DNA from: Candidatus Adiutrix sp.
GTDB lineage: Bacteria; Desulfobacterota; Desulfarculia; Adiutricales; Adiutricaceae
Length of the DNA: 11,122 nt
Direction of reading: 5' to 3'
NCBI GenBank assembly: GCA_031273445.1
Contig: JAISRV010000062.1
Coordinates: 1 to 11,122 of the forward strand
Below, piece after piece: positions 1 to 11,122 of this stretch (the stretch's first letter is position 1; every line of letters starts with the position of its first letter). The notes under the pieces are model-generated. The model was not told the DNA's origin and ran no database searches. It saw nothing but the letters and a program-made list of their open reading frames with translations. The translations under genes and the position numbers were made by a program.

Positions 1-1
1 A

Positions 2-1390
2 GCCACCCTGGAAGTGCTTTGGCAGACCGGCGTGGCCGTCTATTCGGCCGCGGCCCGGGAAATGTTCGCCGGGGCGGGCGCCAGGATTGAAAAGGATCTG
101 ATCGTCAAAATTCCGCCCTATGTAGTGGAAGAGGCCATAAGATCGGCGCCGGAAAAACTGGTTCTGGCCGGCCGCACGCCCGAGCGGGACGTGTCCGTGG
201 AAGGGCGGCGGGTCTATTTCACCAATTTCGGCGAAGGCATCAAGGTCTATGACATCGACACCGGCGAACTGCGGGCCACCACCAAGAAAGACCTGGAGCT
301 GGCGGCCCGGGTGGTCGACTATCTCGACCCCATCGACATCATGGAAAAGGCCATGGGCAGCCAGGACAAGCCGGCGAAAGTCAGCGCCCTGCACAATTTC
401 GAGGCCATGCTGACCAACACCACCAAGCATGTTTTCGGCGGGCCTGACAACGGGATAATGGTCGAATACATACTCCGCATGGCCGAGGCCATCGCCGGCG
501 GGCCGGAGTTCATGCCTTTCCGCAGCCAGGTTTCTTTCATCACCTGCCCGGTCAGCCCCCTGCAGCTGGTGGAGGAGAGCTGCGACATCATCATGGCCTC
601 GGCCCGTCACTGGGCGCCCATAAACGTGCTGTCCATGGCCATGAGCGGGGCTTCGGCCCCCATCAACCTGGCCGGCACCATGGTCACCCACAACGCCGAA
701 GTTCTGGCCGGCATCGCCCTGGCCCAGCTGACCAGAAAAGGCGCCCCGGTGATCTACGGCAGTTCCACCACGGCCATGAACATGCGCACGGCCACGGCCA
801 CCGTGGGTTCCCCGGAACTGGCCCTGATCAGCGCGGCGGTGGCCGCCCTGGCCCGCTATTATCTGCTGCCCAGCTGGGTGGCCGGCGGCTAGGCTGACGC
901 CAAGATCTCCGATGTCCAGACCGGCATCGAAAAGACTCTCACCGCCCTGACCCCGGCGTTGGCAGGCGCCAACATCATCTATGGTCTGGGTATGCTGGAT
1001 ATGGGAGTCTGCTTCTGCTACAAACAGTTGCTGATGGATGCCGATGTGGCCGACATGGTTAAATTCACCGTGGCCGGACTGCCGGTCAACGACGCCTCTC
1101 TGTCGGTGGACATCATCAAGGAAGTGGGCGCGGCCAAAAATTTCCTCAGTCATAAGGACACCTTCCAGAACCGCAAGATTCAATCCAATCCGGTTCTGTT
1201 CGACCGCAATATGCGCGGCCGCTGGGAGGAGCGCGGTTCTCAGAGCATGAGCGAGCGGGCCGAGGCCAAGCTGCGGACGATCGTCGCCCAATACCGGCCG
1301 CCTGAGCTGCCGCCGGCGGTTCGGAAAACCATTCGGGATATCGTCAACGAAGCCGAGGATAAATATGGTCTGCCCTTAAGCGTCGACTGA
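2..1390 (+). CDS. mttB: Trimethylamine methyltransferase MttB, pyrrolysine-containing, 5' partial
   Basis: MttB moves a methyl group from trimethylamine to a cognate corrinoid protein (MttC) in the cytoplasm, leaving dimethylamine. The frame is open from base 2, and the first visible residues (ATLEVLWQTGV) match family sequence some way in from the N-terminus. About 37 residues are therefore missing to the left, and the GTG at 14 is not the real start. The reading frame is interrupted only by TAG at 890-892, after LPSWVAGG, and resumes at once with ADAKISDVQTG through to TGA at 1388-1390. The amber codon is visible residue 297; adding the missing part puts it near residue 334, where methanogen MttB carries pyrrolysine. 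The visible length of 462 residues agrees with a family length of about 495-500. Read naively, it would be split into two false genes. It is first in the visible operon, with the aldehyde dehydrogenase 76 bases downstream. The corrinoid protein and the pyl genes lie outside the window. Family identity is near certain; the in vivo amine is inferred. Confidence 0.95.
890..892 (+). other. In-frame UAG codon read as pyrrolysine
   Basis: The TAG lies in frame between two halves that are both conserved MttB sequence, with LPSWVAGG before it and ADAK after it. There is no new start codon or ribosome-binding site directly downstream; the next in-frame start-like codon is near 959, inside conserved protein. 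This is the active-site pyrrolysine position of the MttB family. Decoding needs tRNA-Pyl (pylT) and PylS, which are not in the window. A sequencing error or nonsense mutation is much less likely given the exact position. Confidence 0.93.
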
Positions 1391-1466
1391 AGATTTATAG
1401 CCCCGCCTTAAATTTTGGTTTTGTTTCAACGGTCAAACAGAGTGTTTTTTGGGAGGTTCGCCAGTC

Positions 1467-2834
1467 ATGGATACGGCAAAATATGTGGAGGGCCTGATCG
1501 CCAGGGCCCGGATCGCTCAGAAGGAATATGAAGCTTTCAGTCAGGAAAGGGTGGACGCCTGCACCCGGGCGGCGGGCAAGGCGGTTTACGATCACGCCGA
1601 GGAACTGGCCCGTCTGGCTGTGGACGAGACCCGCATGGGCCGTTACGAGGACAAGATACTGAAGAACAAAGGCAAGACCAAAATGACCTGGCTCAAGCTC
1701 AAAGGTCAGAAAAGCCGGGGCATTATCCGTCATATCCCCGAACTGGCCCTGGTGGAAGTGGCCAAGCCCATCGGCGTCATCGGGGCCGTCACTCCCACCA
1801 CCAACCCGAACATGACCCCGGCCCACAACGCCATGATGGCCCTTAAATGCGGCAACGCCATTATCGTCTGCCCTCATCCCCGCTCGACCAAAAGCGCCAT
1901 AAGAACGGTGGAATTGATGCGGGAAGCCGTGGCCAAACTGGGGGCGCCGGCCGATCTGATTCAGGTGGTGGAAAGCCCTTCGGTGGAGGCTTCCACTCTG
2001 GTGATGAAAATGACCGACCTGTGCGTCTCCACCGGCGGCCCGGCCATGGTCAGGGCCGCCTACAGCAGCGGCCGGCCGGCCTTCGGCGTTGGCCCGGGCA
2101 ACGTGCAGTGTCTGATCGACCGCGGGGCGGACATAGTTGACGCGGCCAAAAAAATAAGCGCCGGACGTATCTACGACAACGGCATCTTGTGTTCCTGCGA
2201 ACAAAGCGTCATCTGTCCGGCTGAAAAATTTGACGAACTCATGGCTGAATTCGTCAAAAACGGCGCCTACCAGGTCAAAGATCAGGCGGAAATAGACCGG
2301 CTCAGGGCCAAATCTTTCCCGGATGGAGCCTCCTGCAAAGACTTCGTCGGCGCGCCCGCTCTCTTTATAGCCAAAGAATGCGGCCTCGGCGCGCCCGATG
2401 ACTGCCTTTTTTTGGCGGTCGCTCTGGAGCGTTGCGGCCGCGATGAACCGCTGGCCAAAGAAAAGCTGTTCCCGGTGCTCGGCGTTTTTAAATACCACGA
2501 CTGGAAAGAGGCGGTGGCCATCGCCCTGGCCAATCTGGAAGAAGACGGCAAGGGCCACAGCTGCGTCATCCATTCGCACGACCGGGCCAACATTGAATAT
2601 GCGGCCCTGACCCTGCCGGTGTCGCGTTTCTCCATCAACCAAACCGGCTCCAACAGTCTGGGCGGGACCATCGCCAACGGTTTGAACCCCACCGCGACTC
2701 TGGGCTGCGGCTCCTGGGGGGGCAACAGCCAGAGCGAAAATCTGTGGTTCCATCACCTGATGAACGTCAGCCGCATCGTTTATCCCATCGAAGGGGCCGT
2801 CATGCCCAGCGACGAGGAAATCTGGGCCGAGTGA
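1467..2834 (+). CDS. Acylating (CoA-dependent) aldehyde dehydrogenase
   Basis: The predicted reaction is reversible NAD(P)-dependent conversion of an aldehyde plus CoA to an acyl-CoA, in the cytoplasm. The 455-residue protein spans the single ALDH domain typical of AdhE N-domains, EutE/SucD and sulfoacetaldehyde dehydrogenase SauS. A Rossmann segment follows AKPIGVIGAVTPTTNP (about residues 99-114). Further on come STGGPAMVRAAYSSG (about 188-202) and GVGPGN (about 207-212). The catalytic cysteine is in NGILCSCEQS (Cys about 242), matching the NGxxCxxEQ pattern of acylating enzymes. There is no C-terminal alcohol dehydrogenase domain as in AdhE. The start is ATG 1467, ten bases after GGGAGG (1451-1456); the upstream in-frame TTG at 1449 overlaps that site and is rejected. 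The CoA-transferase gene follows after 29 bases. The aldehyde is unknown: acetaldehyde, betaine aldehyde, sulfoacetaldehyde and succinate semialdehyde are all conceivable. A second cysteine sits two residues from the catalytic one. Confidence 0.9.
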   Translation: MDTAKYVEGLIARARIAQKEYEAFSQERVDACTRAAGKAVYDHAEELARLAVDETRMGRYEDKILKNKGKTKMTWLKLKGQKSRGIIRHIPELALVEVAKPIGVIGAVTPTTNPNMTPAHNAMMALKCGNAIIVCPHPRSTKSAIRTVELMREAVAKLGAPADLIQVVESPSVEASTLVMKMTDLCVSTGGPAMVRAAYSSGRPAFGVGPGNVQCLIDRGADIVDAAKKISAGRIYDNGILCSCEQSVICPAEKFDELMAEFVKNGAYQVKDQAEIDRLRAKSFPDGASCKDFVGAPALFIAKECGLGAPDDCLFLAVALERCGRDEPLAKEKLFPVLGVFKYHDWKEAVAIALANLEEDGKGHSCVIHSHDRANIEYAALTLPVSRFSINQTGSNSLGGTIANGLNPTATLGCGSWGGNSQSENLWFHHLMNVSRIVYPIEGAVMPSDEEIWAE

Positions 2835-2863
2835 CCGGCGATTCTCATTCGGGGGAGAGGACC

Positions 2864-3871
2864 ATGAGCCGCGACAGTAAAGTAATGACCGCCGCCCAGG
2901 CCGTATCGGCTTTCGTCAAAGACGGCGACTGCCTGACTTTCGGCGGTTTCGTCACCAACCGCCGGGCTTACGCTCTGGTGCGGGAAATCATCCGCCAGGG
3001 CCGGAAAAATTTGTATGTGGAAAGCGGCGGCGGCGGCGGCGACATCGACCTTTTGGTGGGGGCCGGCCGCGTCGGCGTCTTCATCAACAGCTACATGGCC
3101 AATTCCGGCTATTCCATGGTCTGCCGCCGTTACCGCGAGGCCGTGGAAAAGGGAACGCTTCTCTACGACGACTATTCCCTGGACGTTCAGACCATCGTCT
3201 TCCACGGAGCGGCCCTGGGTCTGCCCTATATGCCGGTGAAAAATATGCTGGCTTCGGACCTGATCAATAAATGGGGCATTTCGGAGGAGCGGCGGCGGGC
3301 GCATCCCAAATTGCCGGACAAAAAGTTCGTCATCCAGGAAAATCCTTTCCAGCCGGGCGAGATATTGTGCCTGGCGCCGACTCCGTCCATCGACGTGGCC
3401 CTGATTCATGTCCAGACGGCCAGCCCGGACGGAACCTGTCGAATTGAGGGCCCGCAGTTTCAGGATGTGGACATCGCCGTCGCCGCCCGGCGCACCATTG
3501 TTTCCTGTGAGGAATTAATCAGCGACGAGGAGATGCGCGCCTCGCCGGACCGCAACACCCTGCCCGGGCTCTGCGTCGACGCGGTGACGCGGCTGCCTTT
3601 CGGCGCCCATCCCGCCCAGTGTTTCAACCACTATGATTATGATCCGGCCCTCTTATGGGAATATGAGGAGGCCAGCCGCGACCAGGCCGGTTTCGACGGC
3701 TTTTTGACTAAATATGTCCTCTCCCGCGCCGACCACGAACAATATCTGGCTTTCGTCGGCCAGGAACGCCTGGAAGCTCTCCGCATCAAAGACCGGGCCG
3801 TCGGTTACGTGGCCGGATTGCGTCGCGGTCGTCCCCAAGCCGTCGCCGCTGAAGAAAAGAGGCCGTCATGA
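2864..3871 (+). CDS. gctA: Class I CoA-transferase subunit A, glutaconate CoA-transferase type
   Basis: This is the alpha subunit of a family I CoA-transferase, which moves CoA between an acyl-CoA donor and a carboxylate. The 335 residues align along their length with what I recall of Acidaminococcus GctA (about 320 residues). Shared blocks include KVMTAAQAVSAFVKDGD, GGFVTNRRAYALVREI, the glycine-rich CoA-fold loop SGGGGGGDIDLLVGAGRV, ANSGYSMVCRRYREA, NPFQPGEILCLAPTP, FQDVDIAVAARRTIVSCEE and PFGAHPAQC. The start is ATG 2864, four bases after the purine-rich site GGGGGAGAGG (2851-2860). The frame is open back to 2744 inside the dehydrogenase gene, but that extension is shadow sequence. Its stop overlaps the next start as ATGA (3868-3871), so A and B are likely coupled in translation and made one-to-one. 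Similarity to GctA is strong, but substrate in this family cannot be read from sequence; in this operon glutaconate is not the obvious substrate. Confidence 0.9.
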   Translation: MSRDSKVMTAAQAVSAFVKDGDCLTFGGFVTNRRAYALVREIIRQGRKNLYVESGGGGGDIDLLVGAGRVGVFINSYMANSGYSMVCRRYREAVEKGTLLYDDYSLDVQTIVFHGAALGLPYMPVKNMLASDLINKWGISEERRRAHPKLPDKKFVIQENPFQPGEILCLAPTPSIDVALIHVQTASPDGTCRIEGPQFQDVDIAVAARRTIVSCEELISDEEMRASPDRNTLPGLCVDAVTRLPFGAHPAQCFNHYDYDPALLWEYEEASRDQAGFDGFLTKYVLSRADHEQYLAFVGQERLEALRIKDRAVGYVAGLRRGRPQAVAAEEKRPS

Positions 3872-4617
3872 GCGTTTTTACGGCCCAGCAGATGATGGCG
3901 ACGGCTTTGGCCCGTCAGGTGGTCGACGGCCGGACTTACATTGTGGGCACGGGTCTGCCTCTCATCGGCGCGGCCCTGGCCAAAAACACCCACGCTCCCA
4001 ACGCTCACCTTTTGTTTGAGACCGGGCTGATGGAGGGCAATCCCCAGGAGGCGCCCACCAGCGTTTCCGACCTGCGCATCTGCCGGGGGGCTTCGGCTTT
4101 GTGGCCTCAATACCGCTATTTCGGCTTCATGTCTCTGGCCAGCCGGCGGGGCGACATTGACGCCGGTTTTCTGGGCGGCGCCCAAATTGACCCCTACGGC
4201 AATTTGAATTCCACCAGCATCGGCGACTATTTTCATCCGGAAACCCGTTTCAGCGGTTCCGGCGGCGCCAACGGCATCGCCACCTATTGCGACACAGTCA
4301 TCATTATGAAGCATGAAAAGCGCCGCTTTGCGGAGAAGATCGATTATGTCACCAGCCCCGGCTGGGTGGATGGCCCCGGCGGCCGGGCCCGCTTGGGCCT
4401 GCCGCCGGACAAGGGCCCCCGAGCCGTGATTACGGAATTGGGGCTGATGCGTTTCGGGCCGGACAAACGGATGTATCTGGCGGAGTTTTTCCCCGGCGTC
4501 GCCCCTGAGGCGGTGGCCGAGGCCACAGGTTTCGCCCTGGATATCTCCCGGGCGGTGGAAGCCGAACCGCCCGGCGAGGAAGTTTTGCGCGTTCTCAGGG
4601 AAAAATTGGCGACCTGA
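3868..4617 (+). CDS. gctB: Class I CoA-transferase subunit B, glutaconate CoA-transferase type
   Basis: This beta subunit carries the catalytic glutamate that forms the acyl- and CoA-thioester intermediates. In the 249-residue protein it is Glu51 in LLFETGLMEG, matching the ESGLMD block of GctB (Glu54 there). Other family blocks are GTGLPLIGAALAK near the N-terminus, GGAQIDPYGNLNSTSIGDY, FSGSGGANGIATY, MKHEKRRFAEKIDYVTSPG and GWVDGPGGRARLGLP. The protein is slightly shorter at the C-terminus than Acidaminococcus GctB (about 266). It starts at the ATG overlapping the subunit A stop, with GAAAAGAGG just upstream as ribosome site. It ends 29 bases before the symporter gene. All catalytic features are present, so an active enzyme is expected. 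The CoA acceptor is unknown; a dicarboxylate, a betaine-type acid or acetate would all fit an operon with an acylating aldehyde dehydrogenase and MttB. Confidence 0.9.
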   Translation: MSVFTAQQMMATALARQVVDGRTYIVGTGLPLIGAALAKNTHAPNAHLLFETGLMEGNPQEAPTSVSDLRICRGASALWPQYRYFGFMSLASRRGDIDAGFLGGAQIDPYGNLNSTSIGDYFHPETRFSGSGGANGIATYCDTVIIMKHEKRRFAEKIDYVTSPGWVDGPGGRARLGLPPDKGPRAVITELGLMRFGPDKRMYLAEFFPGVAPEAVAEATGFALDISRAVEAEPPGEEVLRVLREKLAT

Positions 4618-4646
4618 GGGCGAAATCAGCGGGAGGAGCGGCGGCC

Positions 4647-6017
4647 GTGAGTACTCCGCACTATATCGGGGCGGTTCTGGTTTTAGGGCTGATCTCGGCG
4701 GTCGGCTATTTTTCCGGCCGCCGGATCAAATCGGCCGACGATTTCACCGTCGGCGGCCGCCGGGCCGGGGCCGGCATTGTGGCCGGAGCCCTGATCGGCA
4801 CCCTGGTGGGCGGCGCCTCCACCATCGGCACCGCCCAACTGGCTTTCAACTATGGCTTTTCCGCCTGGTGGTTTACCCTGGGCGGCGGTCTGGGCTGCCT
4901 GGCTCTGGCCGTTTTTTTTTCCCGGCGCGTCTATGAGAGCGGCATCAGCACCATGCCTCAAATTTTCGCCCGGGAATACGGCCGCCGATCCAGCACGGCG
5001 GTCACTCTATTATCCTCCCTGGGCAGTTTTCTGAGCGTTGTTTCCCAGATGCTCTCCGGCCTGGCTCTGGCGGGGGCGGCCGCCCATCTGGGTCACGCGG
5101 CCGGGACCATACTGGTGGCGGCCCTGATGATGTGCTACGTTGTTTTCGGCGGCGTCTGGGGGGCCGGCTACGTCGGTCTGGTCAAGACCATTCTGCTGTA
5201 TGGCGGGGTCGGTCTCTGCGGCCTTCTGGCCCTCAAGGCCCAGGGCGGCCCGGCCGCTTTCCAGGCCGCTCTGCCGGCCGAGCGCTATTTTAACCTGGTG
5301 GCCCAAGGGCCGGTGAAAGACCTGGGGGCCGGGCTTTCGCTGGTTTTGGGGGTTCTGACCACCCAGGCCTATATTCAGGCCATGATTTCCGCCAGGTCGC
5401 TCCGGGTCTCCCGGCTGGGCATTCTCATCAGCGCGGCGCTGATTCCCCTGGTGGGCGTGGCCGGAATTTTCGTGGGCATGTACATGAAACTGCGCCACCC
5501 GGACATAGCCTCGGCCGCCGCCCTGCCTCTGTTCATCATGGAGCAGCTGCCGCCGCTGTTGGGCGGGGCCATTCTGGCCACGCTCTTGGTGACGGTGGTG
5601 GGGACGGGGGCCGGCGTTTCCCTGGGTCTGAGCGCCATGTTCTGCAACGACATCTATAAAGTCTACCTCCGCAAAAATCCCACGGACAGGCAAAGTCTGC
5701 TGGTCAGCCGGCTGACCATCGTCGTCATTCTGGCGGCGGCCGCGCTGTTCGCCAGCGGCAACCTGGGGTCGTTGATTCTGAGCTGGAGTTTTTTGTCCAT
5801 GGGTCTGCGCGGAGCGGCGGCCTTCGCGCCCATGTGCGCCGCTTTGTTTCTGCCGGGCCGAATCAGGGCCGAATTCGCCCTGGCCTCCATTGTGGCCGGT
5901 CCGCTTTTCGTCCTGGCGGGCAAATTCACGCTGCCGGCCAGTTTTGATCCCCTGTTCATCGGCGTGGCCGCCAGCGCGGTCATCCTGGGTTTGGGCTATA
6001 AATCGAGCCGTTCCTGA
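4647..6017 (+). CDS. Sodium:solute symporter (SSS family)
   Basis: This is an inner-membrane permease expected to couple sodium inflow to uptake of an organic solute. The 456 residues are overwhelmingly hydrophobic, with about 12-13 membrane segments. The family hallmark after the first helix is visible as GRRIKSADDFTVGGRRAG (about residues 24-41), followed by GALIGTLVGGASTIGTAQLAF, typical of SSS helix 2. The length is slightly below the usual 480-520. The start is GTG 4647, eight bases after GGGAGGAG (4631-4638). It is the last gene of the operon; no convincing terminator follows. Relatives carry proline, pantothenate, choline or betaine and short organic acids, so the solute cannot be named from sequence. 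The operon suggests it imports the compound that MttB, the dehydrogenase and the CoA-transferase process. A run of nine T at 4912-4920 lies inside the gene. Confidence 0.88.
   Translation: MSTPHYIGAVLVLGLISAVGYFSGRRIKSADDFTVGGRRAGAGIVAGALIGTLVGGASTIGTAQLAFNYGFSAWWFTLGGGLGCLALAVFFSRRVYESGISTMPQIFAREYGRRSSTAVTLLSSLGSFLSVVSQMLSGLALAGAAAHLGHAAGTILVAALMMCYVVFGGVWGAGYVGLVKTILLYGGVGLCGLLALKAQGGPAAFQAALPAERYFNLVAQGPVKDLGAGLSLVLGVLTTQAYIQAMISARSLRVSRLGILISAALIPLVGVAGIFVGMYMKLRHPDIASAAALPLFIMEQLPPLLGGAILATLLVTVVGTGAGVSLGLSAMFCNDIYKVYLRKNPTDRQSLLVSRLTIVVILAAAALFASGNLGSLILSWSFLSMGLRGAAAFAPMCAALFLPGRIRAEFALASIVAGPLFVLAGKFTLPASFDPLFIGVAASAVILGLGYKSSRS
4912..4920 (+). repeat. T9 homopolymer inside the symporter gene
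   Basis: Nine consecutive T encode part of the Val-Phe-Phe-Ser stretch of a membrane helix and are followed directly by CCC. In a GC-rich gene with few long homopolymers this run stands out. It keeps the frame as given. It could be a site of polymerase or sequencing slippage, and a one-base change would truncate the symporter. Confidence 0.8.
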
Positions 6018-6114
6018 ACCCTGCCAAGCCAGCCGGGAGACGCGGACTTTTTTTAGCCGACGACCCAGGCGCCCGGCCGCCGGGCTAAAACCCGTCGACG
6101 GCGCCGGCTGGTTC

Positions 6115-6138
6115 AGCTTTAAATAGTCGAGCTTTAAA
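6115..6138. repeat. Direct repeat AGCTTTAAA x2
   Basis: AGCTTTAAA occurs at 6115-6123 and again at 6130-6138, a 15-base offset. Each copy contains the palindrome TTTAAA. The pair lies at the GC-to-AT transition about 50 bases upstream of the TATAAT box, where a regulator could bind. Function is unproven; chance in AT-rich sequence is possible. Confidence 0.4.
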
Positions 6139-6158
6139 AATGAAATAAATATATGGTT

Positions 6159-6191
6159 TTGACTGGTTTTTTTGTAATATTGCGGTATAAT
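6159..6191 (+). promoter_or_regulatory. Candidate sigma-70 promoter with perfect -10
   Basis: TATAAT at 6186-6191 is a perfect -10 hexamer in an AT-rich stretch. The best -35 match, TTGACT (6159-6164), is 21 bases away, longer than the usual 16-18; at the optimal distance only CTGGTT is found. It points towards the IS remnant and, about 350 bases on, the MCP gene. It may be the promoter of a gene since destroyed, or a weak promoter for the MCP. The call rests on the -10 box and composition only. Confidence 0.4.
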
Positions 6192-6254
6192 TGCTACCAG
6201 AGAAGGCTTAAAAGGGCGAAAAAGACGGTCGGAAAACAACCGTGGAGGAGACAT

Positions 6255-6425
6255 GAAAACACCTTGAAGTCAGACTTTCGAATGGCCCGAAACTTTTTGA
6301 AAGCCGGCCTCAGGGATTCGATAAACGCCCTGATGGCCGTCGCCGCATTCAATTTCAAGAATATGGATGCGGGAAGGCGGGGCTATGTTTTTCTTTCTTC
6401 ATTCTTCGACTTTTGGGCCTGTTAA
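6255..6425 (+). pseudogene. C-terminal remnant of an IS5-type (DDE) transposase
   Basis: From base 6264 the frame reads LKSDFRMARNFLKA then GLRDSINALMAVAAFNFKNM, to a TAA at 6423-6425. This is the recognisable tail of IS5-family transposases, whose members end with a block of the type HLKSDxRMxRNxLKG-x3-D-x-INALLAAAAFNF followed by a hydrophobic, aromatic segment. Only about 55 residues survive; the catalytic DDE core and N-terminus are absent. The preceding sequence (6153-6254) does not look like transposase although the frame happens to be open. The start given marks where similarity plausibly begins, not a start codon. The fragment has no SD of its own and cannot encode an active transposase. 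Terminal inverted repeats are not identifiable with confidence. It is a scar of past insertion and deletion between the amine operon and the MCP gene. Confidence 0.7.
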
Positions 6426-6509
6426 GGGTCTTCAACCAGCCAAACGGCTTCTCAAACAACCAGATCCTAAATACTTTTTAAGGATCGACTACTTAATTTT
6501 CAACCAAAT

Positions 6510-6544
6510 AAGGAGGGAGCATTTTTTCTTCTGATTTTAATCAG
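6510..6544 (+). promoter_or_regulatory. Strong Shine-Dalgarno plus small hairpin in the MCP leader
   Basis: AAGGAGGG (6510-6517) is a near-perfect anti-16S match, yet the candidate starts GTG 6544, ATG 6553 and ATG 6565 lie 26, 35 and 47 bases beyond it, and an in-frame TGA at 6532-6534 blocks any earlier start. Between them is the perfect inverted repeat CTGATT-TT-AATCAG (6531-6544), which could fold into a short hairpin. Either the hairpin shortens the effective distance, or the SD serves as a standby site, or it belonged to another gene disrupted here. Confidence 0.45.
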
Positions 6545-6552
6545 TGGAATTT

Positions 6553-8394
6553 ATGCGCACAAGTATGAAACTTAGCTCTAAAATAATCATTGGTTTTTTA
6601 TCTGTAAGCCTGATTTTTCTGGTCATCTCATCTCTGGTCAGCTACAACTTTCTGACTGTCCGAAATGAAAGCCGTCAGCTTATAGGGGTCATCATTCCAG
6701 GAAACGATCTGGCCAATAACCTCCAGTACTCAGTGGCCTTGGAAGGGCTCGACATTACCGACTATAGCAATACCATGCTCCCAGAAACTTGGAGCAAAAC
6801 TGAGGTCACTCGAAAAATTAACCTAGACCGCCTAGGAGCCCTTCAGGATAACCGCTATCTTGATCTTGGCGCTGACATTAATCAAAAAATAAATGCGATC
6901 ACCCGCTTTTACGACGCTTTTCAAAATGTAGCCACGCAACTTCCCGCCATCGCCCAAACTATCATCGATTCCAGAAGTGAAGCCGTGAAAGCCTATTCGC
7001 AGTTTCAATCTGATTTTTCCGCCTACAGCACAAGCATGCTTGAACGTCTCAAAAGAGAGTTGACCGAAGGGGCCAGCCTTGAAGATCTCCGTTTCGCCTA
7101 TGACCGAGTTGAACGCGTCCACGTTATGGAAAAACTAGGCTCAACGTTTTATCTGGATTTGGTAAGAGGCCTTTATTACCAGGATACCTCATATTTCGAC
7201 CAGGGGCTCAAAACCATTGATGAATTAATGCGGATTACCGAAAAAATCCGGGACGACAGCATTAATCAAATTAACAAGGACAAATTGACGGTTATCCTCA
7301 AAAGCGAGATGATTTGCCGACAAGCCATGATAACCATGAGCGACAACATTTCAAAGGTCAACATAAACCGGACCATCCATCAAAAGGCCAGGAATGACGT
7401 CCTCGAAAGCGCAGGCGCCCTTTCTGATGAGATGACTGTTCTGACTAACGAAGTGGCTGACCAAATGGGCGCTTCCATCGGCCGCTCGTTCTTCGTTCTT
7501 ATGTTCGGCGTGGCCATAGCCCTGATTATAAGCACGGTCATCTCAATACTGATAACCAGGAGCATTACGCTCTCAATCAGGCGGATCATCGACTCCATTT
7601 CCGAAGCCTCCGTGGAAGTCGGCAATGCTTCCATGGAACTCTCCTCAGCCTCCAATTCCCTGGCCGAAGGAGCCGCTGAAAACGCAGCCAGCCTTGAACA
7701 GACGAGCGCGGCTATTGAAGAATTATCCTCCATGACCAAACGTAATGCCGATAACGCCACCGAGGCCGACGGCCTCATGACCGTCACCCAGGCCGAACTC
7801 GACAAAGCTCAGAATTCAATGACTTACGTGACCACGGCCATGAATGGAATCAGCGATTCAGGCCATGAAATCGGCAAAATCATCAAAACCATAGATGAAA
7901 TCGCATTCCAGACGAATCTGTTGGCTTTGAACGCGGCCGTGGAAGCGGCCAGGGCCGGGGAGGCCGGTTCAGGGTTTGCTGTTGTGGCCGATGAAGTCCG
8001 AAATCTGGCCATACGCTCCGCTGAGGCCGCCAAAAACACCGCCGCTCTCATCGCCTCCACAATTAAAAATATTGATTCTGGGACTTTAATGGTGACTTCG
8101 GCTTCCGAAATTTTCATCAAAGCCGCCGGATATTCCGGAAAAGTCGCGCAGCTGATATCTGAGGTGGCTGAAGCTTCGAAGGAACAAGCCCAGGGAATCA
8201 ATCAGATAACCACGGCTGTGCAACAGATGGATAAAGTCACCCAGGTCAACGCCGCTTCAGCCGAGCAATCCGCTTCGGCAGCCAAAAATCTTACCGATCA
8301 GGCCTCAGTCCTTTCAGAATCCGTAAAAAATCTTTCATTTCTGGTTAATGCCGGGAAAGCGGCTAGTTTTCAAGACATCGGACAATATAGATAG
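6553..8394 (+). CDS. Methyl-accepting chemotaxis protein, two-TM with large periplasmic sensor
   Basis: This is an inner-membrane chemoreceptor signalling through CheW/CheA. In the 613-residue reading, helix TM1 is at about 10-31 and an extracytoplasmic, largely helical sensor of roughly 280 residues follows (size consistent with a helical bimodular or double four-helix domain, not proven). TM2 is at about 312-334, then a cytoplasmic coiled coil. The signalling hairpin is unmistakable: [20 protein letters not shown] then [20 protein letters not shown] (about 447-486). A methylation-type helix [16 protein letters not shown] follows TM2 by some 50 residues. HAMP is reduced: after TM2 comes [11 protein letters not shown], with Ser where HAMP helix 1 normally has Pro, and the usual GDL/second-helix block is not seen. 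There is no C-terminal CheR/CheB pentapeptide. The start is uncertain (GTG 6544, ATG 6553, ATG 6565), since none has a well-placed SD. Base composition is visibly lower in GC than the operon. The stop is TAG (8392-8394), with in-frame TAA at 8416-8418. The ligand is unknown; nearness to the amine operon is only suggestive. Confidence 0.92.
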
Positions 8395-8401
8395 AATGCT
8401 T

Positions 8402-8450
8402 ATGGTTCATCCGGTTAAAGCATACTTTGTGGTGTGAATGGTTCAGCCGG
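8402..8450. repeat. Imperfect 13-base direct repeat in the convergent gap
   Basis: ATGGTTCATCCGG (8402-8414) recurs as ATGGTTCAGCCGG (8438-8450), one mismatch, 36 bases apart. The second copy covers the last codons of mcrC. It falls at the junction between the MCP gene and the restriction system, so it could be a trace of insertion of the restriction locus, or chance. Confidence 0.35.
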
Positions 8451-9501
8451 CTTGTTCCAATTCCAGCCAGGAACATAAGGCTTCCAACTGGCTGGCGATT
8501 TCGCTCCAGTCCCGGTCAAGGTCCAGGGTTTTCAGGCTGATGCGATTGCCGCCCATAATGAAGTCGCTGTTCGGGGTCATGGCCTCGCCGGTTTTAGCAT
8601 AGAGCAGAATCCCCGCCACGTTTCCCTTTCCGCCGCGGTCCTTGTTTTTCACATAGGCGAAAATCTGATACAAATGGCTTGAAATGAAAGTAAGGTTGTC
8701 ATATTGGCGATTGGTCCACATGGTCCGGCCATGCCATTTCGTGTCGATGATCAGGACCCTGTCGCCGCGGGTCAGCGTGATGTCCGACTTCATCGCGGGC
8801 AAAAATTCCCGATTCGCGCCGTCCGCGATATCCCATTCGATATGCGCCGCGCGCGGCGCATATGAAGGATGTTCCTTCTGATAATAGGCCAGAACGAATT
8901 TTTCGTACAGCCGGTGCATCTGTTCATCGCCGAGCCACTTCGCGAGGCGATGGCCGCCCGTTTCGGTCGTCAATAACAAGCCCTTTTGGATAAGCCGACA
9001 GATATTTATCAGCATTCTGTAGGCCGCGTTGTTGCGGTGATATTTGAGCGCATCCGCGTGAATCAGCGCCGGCCTTATTTCCGTCACGCCGCTGAAATAC
9101 GACAGTAGCTTACGGAGCCGCTTTTTGTTTTCCGGCTTGACGTCCCCTTTCAACAAAAGAAGCATCATCGTGCTTTTCAATATTTGGTTATGCGCCGAAT
9201 CAACGCTGAACTCATCGTAAGCGCAAACCAGCTTCCTTCGGATAGGCGTTTGTCGCCTGACTGATTCCGCCAGGCGTATTTTCCCGCGCAAACCCGCCAG
9301 CGGCTCTTCCAGCGGAGCGTAGTCCCGATAAAGCCCTCTCTTGATTTGATGGCCTACCCCGTGAATCAATATGGCGGCGAACAAATCGTGCATGTTGTCG
9401 AAATCTTCCGCGCCAACCCCGTCAAACCCTGTTTCACGCAAAGTCTGGTAGGCGTAAGACAACATGTAATAAATATTCTTGACCTTGATATTGTCAGCCA
9501 C
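8443..9501 (-). CDS. mcrC: McrC, nuclease subunit of the type IV restriction enzyme McrBC
   Basis: McrC is the endonuclease partner that binds the McrB GTPase ring and cuts DNA bearing modified cytosine. The 352 residues match E. coli McrC (348) over the whole length: VKNIYYMLSYAY at the N-terminus, LRGKIRLAESVRRQ, a KLVCAYDEFSVDSAHNQILK block, LYEKFVLAYYQKEHP, and the PD-(D/E)XK nuclease core MKSDITLTRGDRVLIIDTKW with Asp240, Asp253 and Lys255. All catalytic residues are therefore present. The start chosen is GTG at 9501-9499, which places VADNIKVKNIYYML just as in E. coli McrC; the longer open frame to 9618 lies inside mcrB and is rejected. The GTG overlaps the mcrB stop by 8 bases (GTGGCTGA), implying translational coupling. 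It ends 48 bases from the convergent MCP gene. Confidence 0.93.
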   Translation of the reverse strand: MADNIKVKNIYYMLSYAYQTLRETGFDGVGAEDFDNMHDLFAAILIHGVGHQIKRGLYRDYAPLEEPLAGLRGKIRLAESVRRQTPIRRKLVCAYDEFSVDSAHNQILKSTMMLLLLKGDVKPENKKRLRKLLSYFSGVTEIRPALIHADALKYHRNNAAYRMLINICRLIQKGLLLTTETGGHRLAKWLGDEQMHRLYEKFVLAYYQKEHPSYAPRAAHIEWDIADGANREFLPAMKSDITLTRGDRVLIIDTKWHGRTMWTNRQYDNLTFISSHLYQIFAYVKNKDRGGKGNVAGILLYAKTGEAMTPNSDFIMGGNRISLKTLDLDRDWSEIASQLEALCSWLELEQAG

Positions 9502-11122
9502 GGATCGCGCTTCGCAGTTGCCGAGACCACCGCTCAACCTCGGATGGTTCATCAAACCAATACTCATTGAGCAACGGGAGCAGTTCATGCTCAACAACGT
9601 CGGCAAGCCAGGCCTCATCGACGCCGTCCGAGGCGCAGAAATAACTGTGGCCGATTCTAAATCCGTCGCCGAGCGAAGCGTCTTTAGATATCGCTTTGTT
9701 CAGCGACTCCACCGCGGCGATAAGAGCATCGAATTTCGGGTTCTGAATTTTGTTTTGATAGGCCCTGAAGCCCTCTGAAGAAAAAGCCGGCGCCATCTCA
9801 AAAAAGGCGAAGCGCCGCCGAAGCGCATAGTCGATCATGGCCAGGCTTCTGTCCGCTGTGTTCATCATGCCGATAATGTGCATATTGGCGGGAACGGAAA
9901 ACTGCTCATCGGAATAGAGCAGGCGAATGGAATGCCTTTCGCCGCGTTTGTCGCTTTCGATAAGCATGAGCAGTTCGCCGAATATCTTGCTCAAATTGCC
10001 GCGATTGATTTCGTCGATGATAAAGAAATAACTTCCGTCGTCGGTTTCCGCTTTTTTGCAAAACTCATAGAACGGACCTTTGGCTAAACGGAAGCCCGTT
10101 CCCTCGGGGCGGTAGCCCATGACAAAATCTTCGTAGCTGTAACTTTGGTGAAACTGCACGACTTTTACGCGGCCGACATCCTTTGCGCCCATAAGGGAGA
10201 AGGCCAGCCGCTCCGCGGCGAAGGTTTTCCCGACTCCCGGAGCTCCCTGCAGAATGAGGTTCTTTTTTCTGAGCAGCAAGCCCTTTAAGGTCGCATAACG
10301 TTCGGCGCTCAGGTAGACTTCGCTCAGAAAATCCCGCTCCGAGTAATCCGGGTACTTAATCTCCCGTTCGTCGTCTTGAAATTCTTCCTGTTCGCCGGTC
10401 GTCAGGGCTTCAAGTTTTCCCACATATTCCGTGTATGGGGTCACGTCGGTCAATGTTTTCGCGGCGGCCTGCCCGGGGTGCTCCCATTCGCCCTCCCGCG
10501 TCCACTGAACCTTATGAACGTGTTTGAACTCGCCGCGTTCATCGTCGAAGGCATAACCGGATTCCACCAGGCCCCGGCCGATAATCGCGTTCAGTCCGCG
10601 CTTCGCGAAGACAACGTCCCCGGGCTTGATCTCATTGGCGAATTGCCACAAGGCGTGCCCATCGTTCATGTATGATTTGTCCTCGCCCCGAATTTGCCCC
10701 ATGGCTGTTTTGATGTCGCCTTTGGAGGCATACTGGCGAAGGTCGCCCAACTCATCCCAGCCTATGCTCATTATTCCGTCCTGGCGGCATTCATCCCAAA
10801 GCCGCGCGTTTTTGCCCGGGGCATAAAGCCAGTATCTCTTTTTAGCGGCCGTTTCGTCGTCGGGCGCGTTTATGGCCGGGGTTCGCTCATAACTGCCGTC
10901 TATAATGCTTTCTATGACCTCTTCCTGGCTTCTTGTCACCCGGAAATTAGTGGCGCCGGGGTAGGTGAGCACCTCAAGCCGTTTTGTCCTTTCGTCAAGG
11001 CGCAGAATGTTTCGCGGGACTATCGCTTTTGTGAGTTTGCGGTCAATTCGTATGTCGACCGCGAGATATGGCCTGTTATTGAAGATTTCTCCGCGGCGGT
11101 ACGGGTCTTCGGCCAGAGGTTC
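9494..11122 (-). CDS. mcrB: McrB-like AAA+ GTPase with EVE-like domain, 5' partial
   Basis: This is the motor and DNA-reading subunit of a type IV restriction system. The frame is open to the right edge: 542 residues are visible and the true start is outside, with no ATG in the last 150 bases. Visible residues 1-80 are unassigned. Residues about 95-215 form an EVE/PUA-like fold (YWLYAPGKNARLWDE, MSIGWDELGDL, ALWQFANEIKPGDVVFAKRG, IIGRGLVESGY, HKVQW), a domain family that binds modified bases and is found fused to McrB homologs. The AAA+ module follows: Walker A GAPGVGKT (293-300), FHQSYSYEDFVMGYRP, Walker B FFIIDEINRGNLSKIFGE (about 366-383), the McrB signature MMNTADRS (about 419-426) and an arginine patch LRRRF (434-438). 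The E. coli-type N-terminal DUF3578 reader is not recognised. It lies directly upstream of mcrC with an 8-base overlap. Substrate specificity (5mC, 5hmC or other) cannot be told. Confidence 0.92.
   Translation of the reverse strand, partial: EPLAEDPYRRGEIFNNRPYLAVDIRIDRKLTKAIVPRNILRLDERTKRLEVLTYPGATNFRVTRSQEEVIESIIDGSYERTPAINAPDDETAAKKRYWLYAPGKNARLWDECRQDGIMSIGWDELGDLRQYASKGDIKTAMGQIRGEDKSYMNDGHALWQFANEIKPGDVVFAKRGLNAIIGRGLVESGYAFDDERGEFKHVHKVQWTREGEWEHPGQAAAKTLTDVTPYTEYVGKLEALTTGEQEEFQDDEREIKYPDYSERDFLSEVYLSAERYATLKGLLLRKKNLILQGAPGVGKTFAAERLAFSLMGAKDVGRVKVVQFHQSYSYEDFVMGYRPEGTGFRLAKGPFYEFCKKAETDDGSYFFIIDEINRGNLSKIFGELLMLIESDKRGERHSIRLLYSDEQFSVPANMHIIGMMNTADRSLAMIDYALRRRFAFFEMAPAFSSEGFRAYQNKIQNPKFDALIAAVESLNKAISKDASLGDGFRIGHSYFCASDGVDEAWLADVVEHELLPLLNEYWFDEPSEVERWSRQLRSAIRG

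Follow-up and report, generated by a model that had tools for sequence, protein, structure and literature searches.

The 11,122-nucleotide stretch of Candidatus Adiutrix sp. DNA analyzed here (the window; contig C410 of a 2.79-Mb draft genome in 439 contigs that is 72% complete) carries on its plus strand, from position 2 to 6017, a run of five genes all pointing in one direction. These are mttB, encoding a trimethylamine methyltransferase family protein with a pyrrolysine codon (2..1390, TIGR02369, the first ~30 codons of the 5′ end lying off the contig), the gene of a CoA-acylating aldehyde dehydrogenase, termed AldDH in the following (1467..2834, Aldedh, start ATG with an alternative TTG at 1449), gctA and gctB for the alpha and beta subunits of a GctAB-like CoA-transferase (2864..3871, CoA_trans, and 3868..4617, CoA_trans, PF01144), and a gene for a sodium:solute symporter of the SSS type (4647..6017, start GTG, SSF, PF00474). 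Along the run, gaps of 76 and 29 bases are followed by an ATGA overlap between gctA and gctB and by a further gap of 29 bases. This layout had been described in an initial annotation and was confirmed by the coordinates, the reading frames and family scans. A scan of positions 1-6600 for sigma-70-type promoters yielded zero promoter-like sites (shuffle mean 2.3; sigma-54 promoters are outside its reach), and the 76-base gap between mttB and the AldDH gene (1391..1466) contained neither such a site nor a plus-strand terminator-like site. Downstream of 6017 follow a chemotaxis receptor gene and then a minus-strand mcrBC-like pair, both outside the run.

The mttB frame is open to its stop once a single in-frame TAG (890..892, residue 297 of the read-through frame) is taken as a residue. 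The resulting protein scored 648 bits against TIGR02369 (cut-off 525), and the corresponding alignment column held TAG in 16 of 18 MttB rows, the window counted. Since the genome encodes PylS and PylB, both over their cut-offs, and a tRNA-Pyl(CTA) on contig C43, it is credible that this codon is read as pyrrolysine. The initial annotation had proposed to look for pyl genes by extending the contig leftwards; PylS, PylB, and tRNA-Pyl were found in the genome, but the linking piece to the left was not recovered from 40 further contigs of this genome. With TAG at the pyrrolysine position, a score over the cut-off and pyrrolysine genes in the genome, the window protein resembles MttB of M. barkeri (7xcl/7xcm), for which Gly110, Thr111, Met249, and Tyr364 are described as the residues around pyrrolysine (PMC9842639). 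Gly110, Met249, and Tyr364 are kept in the window protein, whereas Glu replaces Thr111. A further difference from the known kind lies in the surroundings, as mttB leads into CoA-dependent carbon-chain genes here, whereas a permease gene follows it in two relatives. Overall, ten MttB-family matches were found in the genome.

AldDH is 50% identical to, and collinear with, SucD of Clostridium kluyveri (CkSucD, 8cei), and up to 61-62% identical to homologs in relatives of a Clostridiales metagenome-assembled genome (MAG). It keeps Lys70 (codon 1674..1676), the catalytic Cys242 with the adjacent Ser243 (2190..2195) and His364 of CkSucD, in which Lys70 and Ser243 are reported to bind the acyl group by its distal carboxylate (PMC10249356). 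Because this pair is kept, an anionic semialdehyde (glutarate or succinate semialdehyde) is predicted as the substrate rather than a cationic aldehyde or acetaldehyde. Lys70 was present in all 38 rows of SucD-type enzymes and of enzymes linked to a class III aminotransferase, termed AT1 (34 distinct proteins, window included), and also in two SauS-like rows, which have K70/S243. Position 70 is V, T, F, I, or A in seven Ptb-Buk-linked, G021:C180 and ethanolamine-compartment (Eut) rows and Arg in one other enzyme of the genome. These pocket residues speak for a carboxylate or sulfonate, i.e., an anionic distal group, and against trimethylammonium or bare acetaldehyde, but on their own would not choose between a C4 and a C5 substrate. 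In a phylogenetic tree, AldDH falls into a clade of 22 rows representing 21 distinct proteins (support 0.996), and every one of the 12 AT1-linked AldDHs in the tree is a member of it; CkSucD lies outside this aminotransferase-linked clade.

The surroundings of this enzyme type were examined in 294 genomes around the Clostridiales MAG G438, for which "Clostridial" is used as shorthand. AldDH was found at E <= 1e-118 in 73 of them (44-62% identity), and 20 loci from 19 genomes, i.e., the 21 best matches minus one already in hand, were fetched; two of these loci are shorter than 6 kb and several are cut, so that all counts are lower bounds. AT1 was present in 11 of the 20 loci and a second, putrescine-aminotransferase-like enzyme (AT2) in six. 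Furthermore, a glutaryl-CoA-dehydrogenase-like acyl-CoA dehydrogenase (ACAD) was found in six loci, a second ACAD in seven, EtfA in seven, EtfB in six, GcdB in five, GcdA in three, and a 442-residue CoA-transferase in six. The fullest locus, L315, carries AT2, AT1, AldDH, two ACADs, Etf, GcdB, and GcdA on one strand. Its GcdA is 58% identical to that of Acidaminococcus fermentans, whereas its ACAD (398 bits against the glutaryl-CoA dehydrogenase model, cut-off 470) and its GcdB (501 bits against the malonate-decarboxylase model, cut-off 597) score under the model cut-offs, so that these two names are to be read as likenesses and not as memberships. One contig of G580 combines the series AT2-AT1-AldDH-ACADs-Etf-Gcd with gctAB. 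In G718, Ptb- and Buk-like genes (named by eye) stand between the AldDH and AT1 genes, an arrangement which may represent an exit by way of an acyl phosphate. By its gene content, the Clostridial arrangement would fit a route from cadaverine or 5-aminovalerate via glutarate semialdehyde and glutaryl-CoA to crotonyl-CoA; 5-aminovalerate fermentation as reviewed runs via 5-hydroxyvalerate instead (PMC8473912). The window AldDH, its GctAB and an AT1 encoded elsewhere in the genome are of the same kind as the parts of these loci; the Clostridial loci lack MttB, and no named system was found for them.

As to the CoA-transferase, GctA is 51% identical to GctA of A. fermentans (1poi) and 65% identical to its counterpart in locus L090, and GctB is 68-77% identical to homologs in 13 genomes around the Clostridiales MAG and keeps the ESG/ETG motif, the Glu of which we take to be the catalytic residue. 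The pair thus resembles the A. fermentans enzyme in consisting of two CoA_trans subunits, but the window GctB lies in a separate clade (support 1.0) with the three closest loci, which derive from Clostridiales, Thermoanaerobacteraceae, and Syntrophobacteraceae MAGs and are among the best 80 of 177 relatives kept from a contig scan with GctA (flanks fetched up to 8 kb). At least one hgd or gcd gene was matched in 68 of these 80 loci, two of which (L090 and L092; Clostridiales and Syntrophobacteraceae) showed partial or weak GcdA matches only. A family scan detected no hgdABC/hgd or gcd genes of glutamate fermentation among the window genes, and since the gctAB clade is distinct as well, glutamate fermentation via Hgd was rejected. 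GctB at E <= 1e-80 was found in 18 of the 294 genomes, 13 of which are those with 68-77% identity. Eight of these 13 genomes also contain AldDH at E <= 1e-118, compared to 65 of the 281 others (Fisher p=0.0045; the thresholds were chosen by us, and G539, in which a contig end truncates AldDH, was counted as lacking it). In three loci (L263, L268, and L270) AldDH stands directly 5′ of gctA, giving a contiguous AldDH-gctA-gctB series without mttB; in L268 only the C-terminal part of AldDH is present, as the contig ends there. In 9 of the 13 genomes, the locus fetched for gctAB also contains an SSS homolog (24-44% identity). Taken together, these patterns suggest that AldDH-gctA-gctB, possibly with the SSS gene, forms a module of Clostridial affinity that was added to the end of the mttB operon. 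Three further loci (L264, L265, and L266 of G597, G556, and G485) show gctAB of the window clade and an SSS symporter gene 43-44% identical to that of the window, with 2-oxoacid:ferredoxin oxidoreductase-like genes (a thiamine pyrophosphate domain was confirmed in one, the other names were given by eye) lying between them; AldDH is absent from these loci, and none of the three genomes contains it at E <= 1e-118.

Among closer relatives the module is missing. In a search of 60 relatives, GctA at E <= 1e-30 was found in none of the 36 other genomes of the same genus or family, and all 18 other genomes with a match belong to other families (<=45% identity). AldDH is represented in the family by paralogs only (<=46% identical), which, where their loci were read, mostly stand beside Ptb/Buk-like genes (by eye) or in an ethanolamine compartment, and at E <= 1e-110 it occurs in two of 395 genomes of the phylum, one being the genome studied here. 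A contig scan with AldDH alone gave no match, and neither AldDH nor MttB was detected in the fetched flanks of the best 80 of 177 GctA loci. The mttB gene itself has orthologs of 81% identity in G015 (contig C53) and 79% in G028 (contig C342, likewise cut at the contig start); in both, an EamA-like permease gene (by eye), not AldDH, follows on the 3′ side. Accordingly, all five genes together were found nowhere else among the relatives, genomes and loci examined, which upholds the initial description of the gene set as unusual. That description had also named a lack of co-conservation as a point that would speak against a joint pathway: the five genes are indeed not kept together in the relatives examined, but AldDH-gctAB and gctAB-SSS each recur elsewhere.

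Contig C185 (L069) of the same genome probably supplies the upstream part. Here, genes for AT1, for a non-pyrrolysine homolog of MttB (MttB′) and for a BCCT-type transporter share one orientation, the N-terminal 96 residues of the transporter being encoded before the contig ends; a sigma-54 regulator gene is divergent to them. AT1 is 67% identical to AT1 of the Clostridial genome G501 and groups with 11 of 12 Clostridial AT1s (small tree, support 0.953). The other two genes correspond to members of one cluster in G015 and G028 (MttB′ 74-75% identical, the BCCT piece 55% and 51%). On a single contig of G015, this MttB′ cluster is followed by a BCCT transporter (over cut-off), the pyrrolysine dimethylamine methyltransferase MtbB (497 bits, cut-off 369, TAG read through), a corrinoid protein (210 bits, TIGR02370 cut-off 215; the window's own upstream region lies off the contig) and the MttB ortholog of the window, and G028 shows the same order split over two contigs. 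A reading of the gene upstream of the corrinoid gene as UroD-type MtbA was rejected, as with its TAG read through it matches MtbB at 469-497 bits versus a cut-off of 369. The orientations match, C185 ending inside the BCCT gene and the window starting inside mttB, with an expected gap of ~3.6 kb. We therefore consider it rather probable that C185 and the window are neighbors and that AT1-MttB′-BCCT would lie ~3.6 kb upstream. If joined, the two would form an operon with demethylases for quaternary, tertiary, and secondary amines together with an aminotransferase, a dehydrogenase and a CoA-transferase. That AT1 and AldDH each stand beside an MttB-family gene in one genome seems unlikely to be due to chance. 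Another contig ending inside an mttB, C99, was rejected as the neighbor of the window, since its end shows no overlap with that of the window and the two MttBs are different; in one run (L070:1-5478) it carries a BCCT-like gene, pyrrolysine MtbB, a corrinoid protein, pyrrolysine MttB and the first part of an additional MttB homolog, and this paralogous copy may account for the assembly break near the window. A short DNA match on C109 was also rejected, as it sits among phage-like genes (by eye).

In the reading that we prefer, with a probability of roughly 0.55, the window holds the 3′ end of an mttB operon to which a module of Clostridial affinity has been added, with AldDH acting on an anionic omega-semialdehyde and a weaker link to a methylated omega-amino acid. 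AldDH would oxidize the semialdehyde, most likely glutarate semialdehyde derived from 5-aminovalerate, to its CoA ester, GctAB would swap the CoA onto another acid such as acetate, freeing the dicarboxylate and saving the thioester for ATP, the SSS symporter would carry substrate or product with sodium, and MttB would pass methyl groups to its corrinoid protein. More weakly, AT1 would stand just upstream in the same operon and make the semialdehyde, and the substrate would be a methylated omega-amino acid whose methyl groups are passed to corrinoid enzymes and whose chain enters the CoA module. By analogy, MttB′ might act on a quaternary amine, as non-pyrrolysine MttB homologs are described to demethylate such compounds (PMC8604678). 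The joining of the two gene sets suggests that methyl removal and chain use of one methylated amino acid may belong to a joint pathway. A coupling of methyl removal to use of the carbon skeleton had been proposed in the initial annotation; it gains weight because AT1, typical near this AldDH in the Clostridial relatives, adjoins an MttB-family gene in this genome, but the two routes proposed for it were not supported (see below). In its fullest form, which we consider unlikely, a single operon would allow a trimethylated omega-amino acid, e.g., delta-valerobetaine (5-aminovaleric acid betaine), to be degraded completely under anaerobic conditions. The compound would be taken up by the BCCT transporter, MttB′ would remove the quaternary methyl group, the two pyrrolysine enzymes MttB and MtbB would take off the tertiary and the secondary one, respectively, AT1 would transaminate the freed 5-aminovalerate, AldDH would form glutaryl-CoA, and GctAB would release glutarate. 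Among the closest known counterparts are MtyB and MtcB of Eubacterium limosum, likewise MttB-family enzymes taking one methyl group off an amino-acid betaine; there, the demethylation of gamma-butyrobetaine by an MttB-family enzyme was a single step, after which the dimethylamino acid accumulated with no further demethylation detected (PMC8604678).

Several observations weigh against the preferred reading. MttB was present in none of the 20 fetched AldDH loci and was equally absent from the flanks of the 80 GctA loci mentioned above, AT1 was absent from 9 of the 20 AldDH loci (some of them short or cut), 5 of the 13 GctB-clade genomes lack AldDH at E <= 1e-118, and among the three genomes with the closest GctAB, AldDH was found at E <= 1e-40 only in G438 (Clostridiales), leaving two without. 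No ACAD, Etf, or Gcd genes were seen near the window module in the fetched contigs of the genome, glutaryl-CoA dehydrogenase and Gcd not having been searched genome-wide. AT1 lies outside the window, and the piece that would link C185 to it was not found in 40 further contigs of the genome (294 kb; two only to 20 kb). The BCCT match is not unique, as a second BCCT fragment, 61% identical to the BCCT transporter of G015, stands at the other end of C185. Finally, Ser at position 243 of AldDH is shared by the window and SucD, whereas the AT1-linked clade has Thr, as do two Ptb-Buk rows; this position would therefore discriminate little and would leave a C4 substrate possible. AT1 is also absent from the loci fetched from relatives of the same family, whose whole genomes were not searched for it.

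The strongest rival explanation is that the genes are neighbors without a shared pathway, i.e., that an imported dicarboxylate/omega-amino-acid module sits behind mttB and at most shares its transcript, with MttB demethylating free trimethylamine. This is possible, though clearly less probable than the preferred reading. It would agree with the permease gene that follows mttB in G015 and G028, with the lack of GctA in the 36 genomes of the same genus or family, with the absence of MttB from the AldDH and GctA loci read outside the family, and with the fact that the window MttB, scoring over the trimethylamine methyltransferase cut-off, keeps all of the pyrrolysine-surrounding residues except Thr111. 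However, AT1, another gene that accompanies this type of AldDH, also stands beside an MttB-family gene, probably at the other end of the same operon, and mttB and AldDH are not separated by a sigma-70-type promoter-like site. Somewhat less likely again is that the same module serves a C4 compound, converting succinate semialdehyde via succinyl-CoA to succinate from the skeleton of gamma-aminobutyrate or gamma-butyrobetaine. The 50% identity to CkSucD with K70, S243, C242, and H364 speaks for it, and the oxidoreductase-like genes beside gctAB in L264-L266 would be compatible with succinyl-CoA, but AldDH groups with the AT1-linked enzymes and not with SucD, and several AT1-linked loci contain glutaryl-CoA-dehydrogenase-like and Gcd-like genes, which fit C5.

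The first of the two routes in the initial annotation, in which CutC or another C-N lyase sets free trimethylamine and an aldehyde that is then oxidized by AldDH, appears quite improbable, even though an acylating AldDH adjoins a trimethylamine methyltransferase and the genome contains a CutC-like glycyl radical enzyme and glycine/sarcosine/betaine-type reductase components. None of 38 genomes reached the CutC cut-off, and the CutC-like enzymes, found on contig C284 (L239:396-2768) of this genome, 72% complete as it is, and in G003 (L240:8076-10424), scored 714-723 bits, that of C284 714, versus a cut-off of 1050. Moreover, the motif GCVVP of the C284 enzyme corresponds to GCVEP in two aligned CutC chains (and to GCVAP in another chain, 5kdp, presumably a mutant), and Lys70, present in the window AldDH, is missing in the acetaldehyde enzyme of the Eut compartment. 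In the second route, GctAB would activate a betaine-type acid, from which AldDH would form the aldehyde by reduction ahead of C-N cleavage. Enzymes of these two types could operate this way round, but AldDH has the carboxylate-binding Lys70/Ser243 pair in place of a pocket suited to a cationic aldehyde, and the occurrence of AldDH elsewhere with aminotransferases, and in G718 with Ptb-Buk-like genes, fits oxidation; we hold this route to be very improbable. Just as little probability is given to a sulfonate pathway from sulfoacetate or sulfoacetaldehyde with AldDH as SauS. SauS (NF047625) is the best NCBIfam match of AldDH, and SauS-like enzymes also have K70/S243. At 420.6 bits, however, AldDH is under the 600-bit cut-off, on which ground the sulfoacetate pathway was rejected; it is 38% identical to two SauS-like rows, which themselves score 533-536 bits and thus are not certain SauS proteins (the cut-off was reached in 0 of 297 genomes), it is placed outside their tree group, and no neighboring sulfonate gene was recognized by eye.

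Other loci of the genome and its relatives also bear on amine metabolism. A divergent pyrrolysine MttB (557-566 bits to TIGR02369, 39-40% identical to the window MttB) is encoded beside ethanolamine ammonia-lyase microcompartment genes on contig C278 of this genome (L073:383-5466) and in L211/L212 (G003), L213 (G015), and L215 (G008), the ethanolamine genes being named by NCBIfam in G003 and by eye elsewhere. In G003, they are followed by genes for APH-type kinases, for an EamA permease and for an additional MttB homolog, which suggests that choline-type compounds may be demethylated stepwise and feed the Eut pathway. Contig C183 (L071:7258-11026) carries glycine/sarcosine/betaine reductase C alpha, C beta, and selenoprotein A, all over cut-off, and C335 (L076:1-2215) carries component B subunits nearest to sarcosine GrdG/GrdF, under those cut-offs, although the beta subunit exceeds the cut-off of the broad model TIGR01918; one non-pyrrolysine MttB homolog is present on each of the two contigs. 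On C24 (L078:2189-9068), one run comprises a TRAP transporter, an iron-type alcohol dehydrogenase, a CoA-transferase of the succinyl-CoA:acetate type (494 bits, cut-off 500), a CitE-like protein and an acylating AldDH whose residue 70 is Arg, the names other than that of the CoA-transferase being given by eye. In the window itself, positions 6565-11122 contain on the minus strand mcrC (over cut-off) overlapping an mcrB-like AAA protein gene (under the McrB cut-off); the GC content is 0.53-0.54 for this pair, 0.60-0.64 for the operon and 0.48 for the chemotaxis receptor gene between operon and mcrC (6565-8394).

Each part of the proposed system is of a known kind, and its novelty would lie in the combination of known modules, the coupling of which we infer; no description of this gene set or pathway was found among the titles and abstract openings of the open-access literature searched. 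The prediction concerns one operon and one substrate class, and the pocket residues of AldDH already narrow the choice. If the divergent-MttB/Eut loci are read correctly, they would be a precedent for MttB enzymes serving the use of carbon skeletons in this lineage. If the delta-valerobetaine version were true, N-methylated amino acids would serve as substrates of MttB and MtbB, either in place of free trimethylamine and dimethylamine or in addition to them, which would widen the substrate range of the pyrrolysine enzymes. Delta-valerobetaine is described as a microbiome-generated obesogen (PMC11773067), and a bacterium that also oxidizes the skeleton would act as a sink for betaines from which trimethylamine is otherwise formed.

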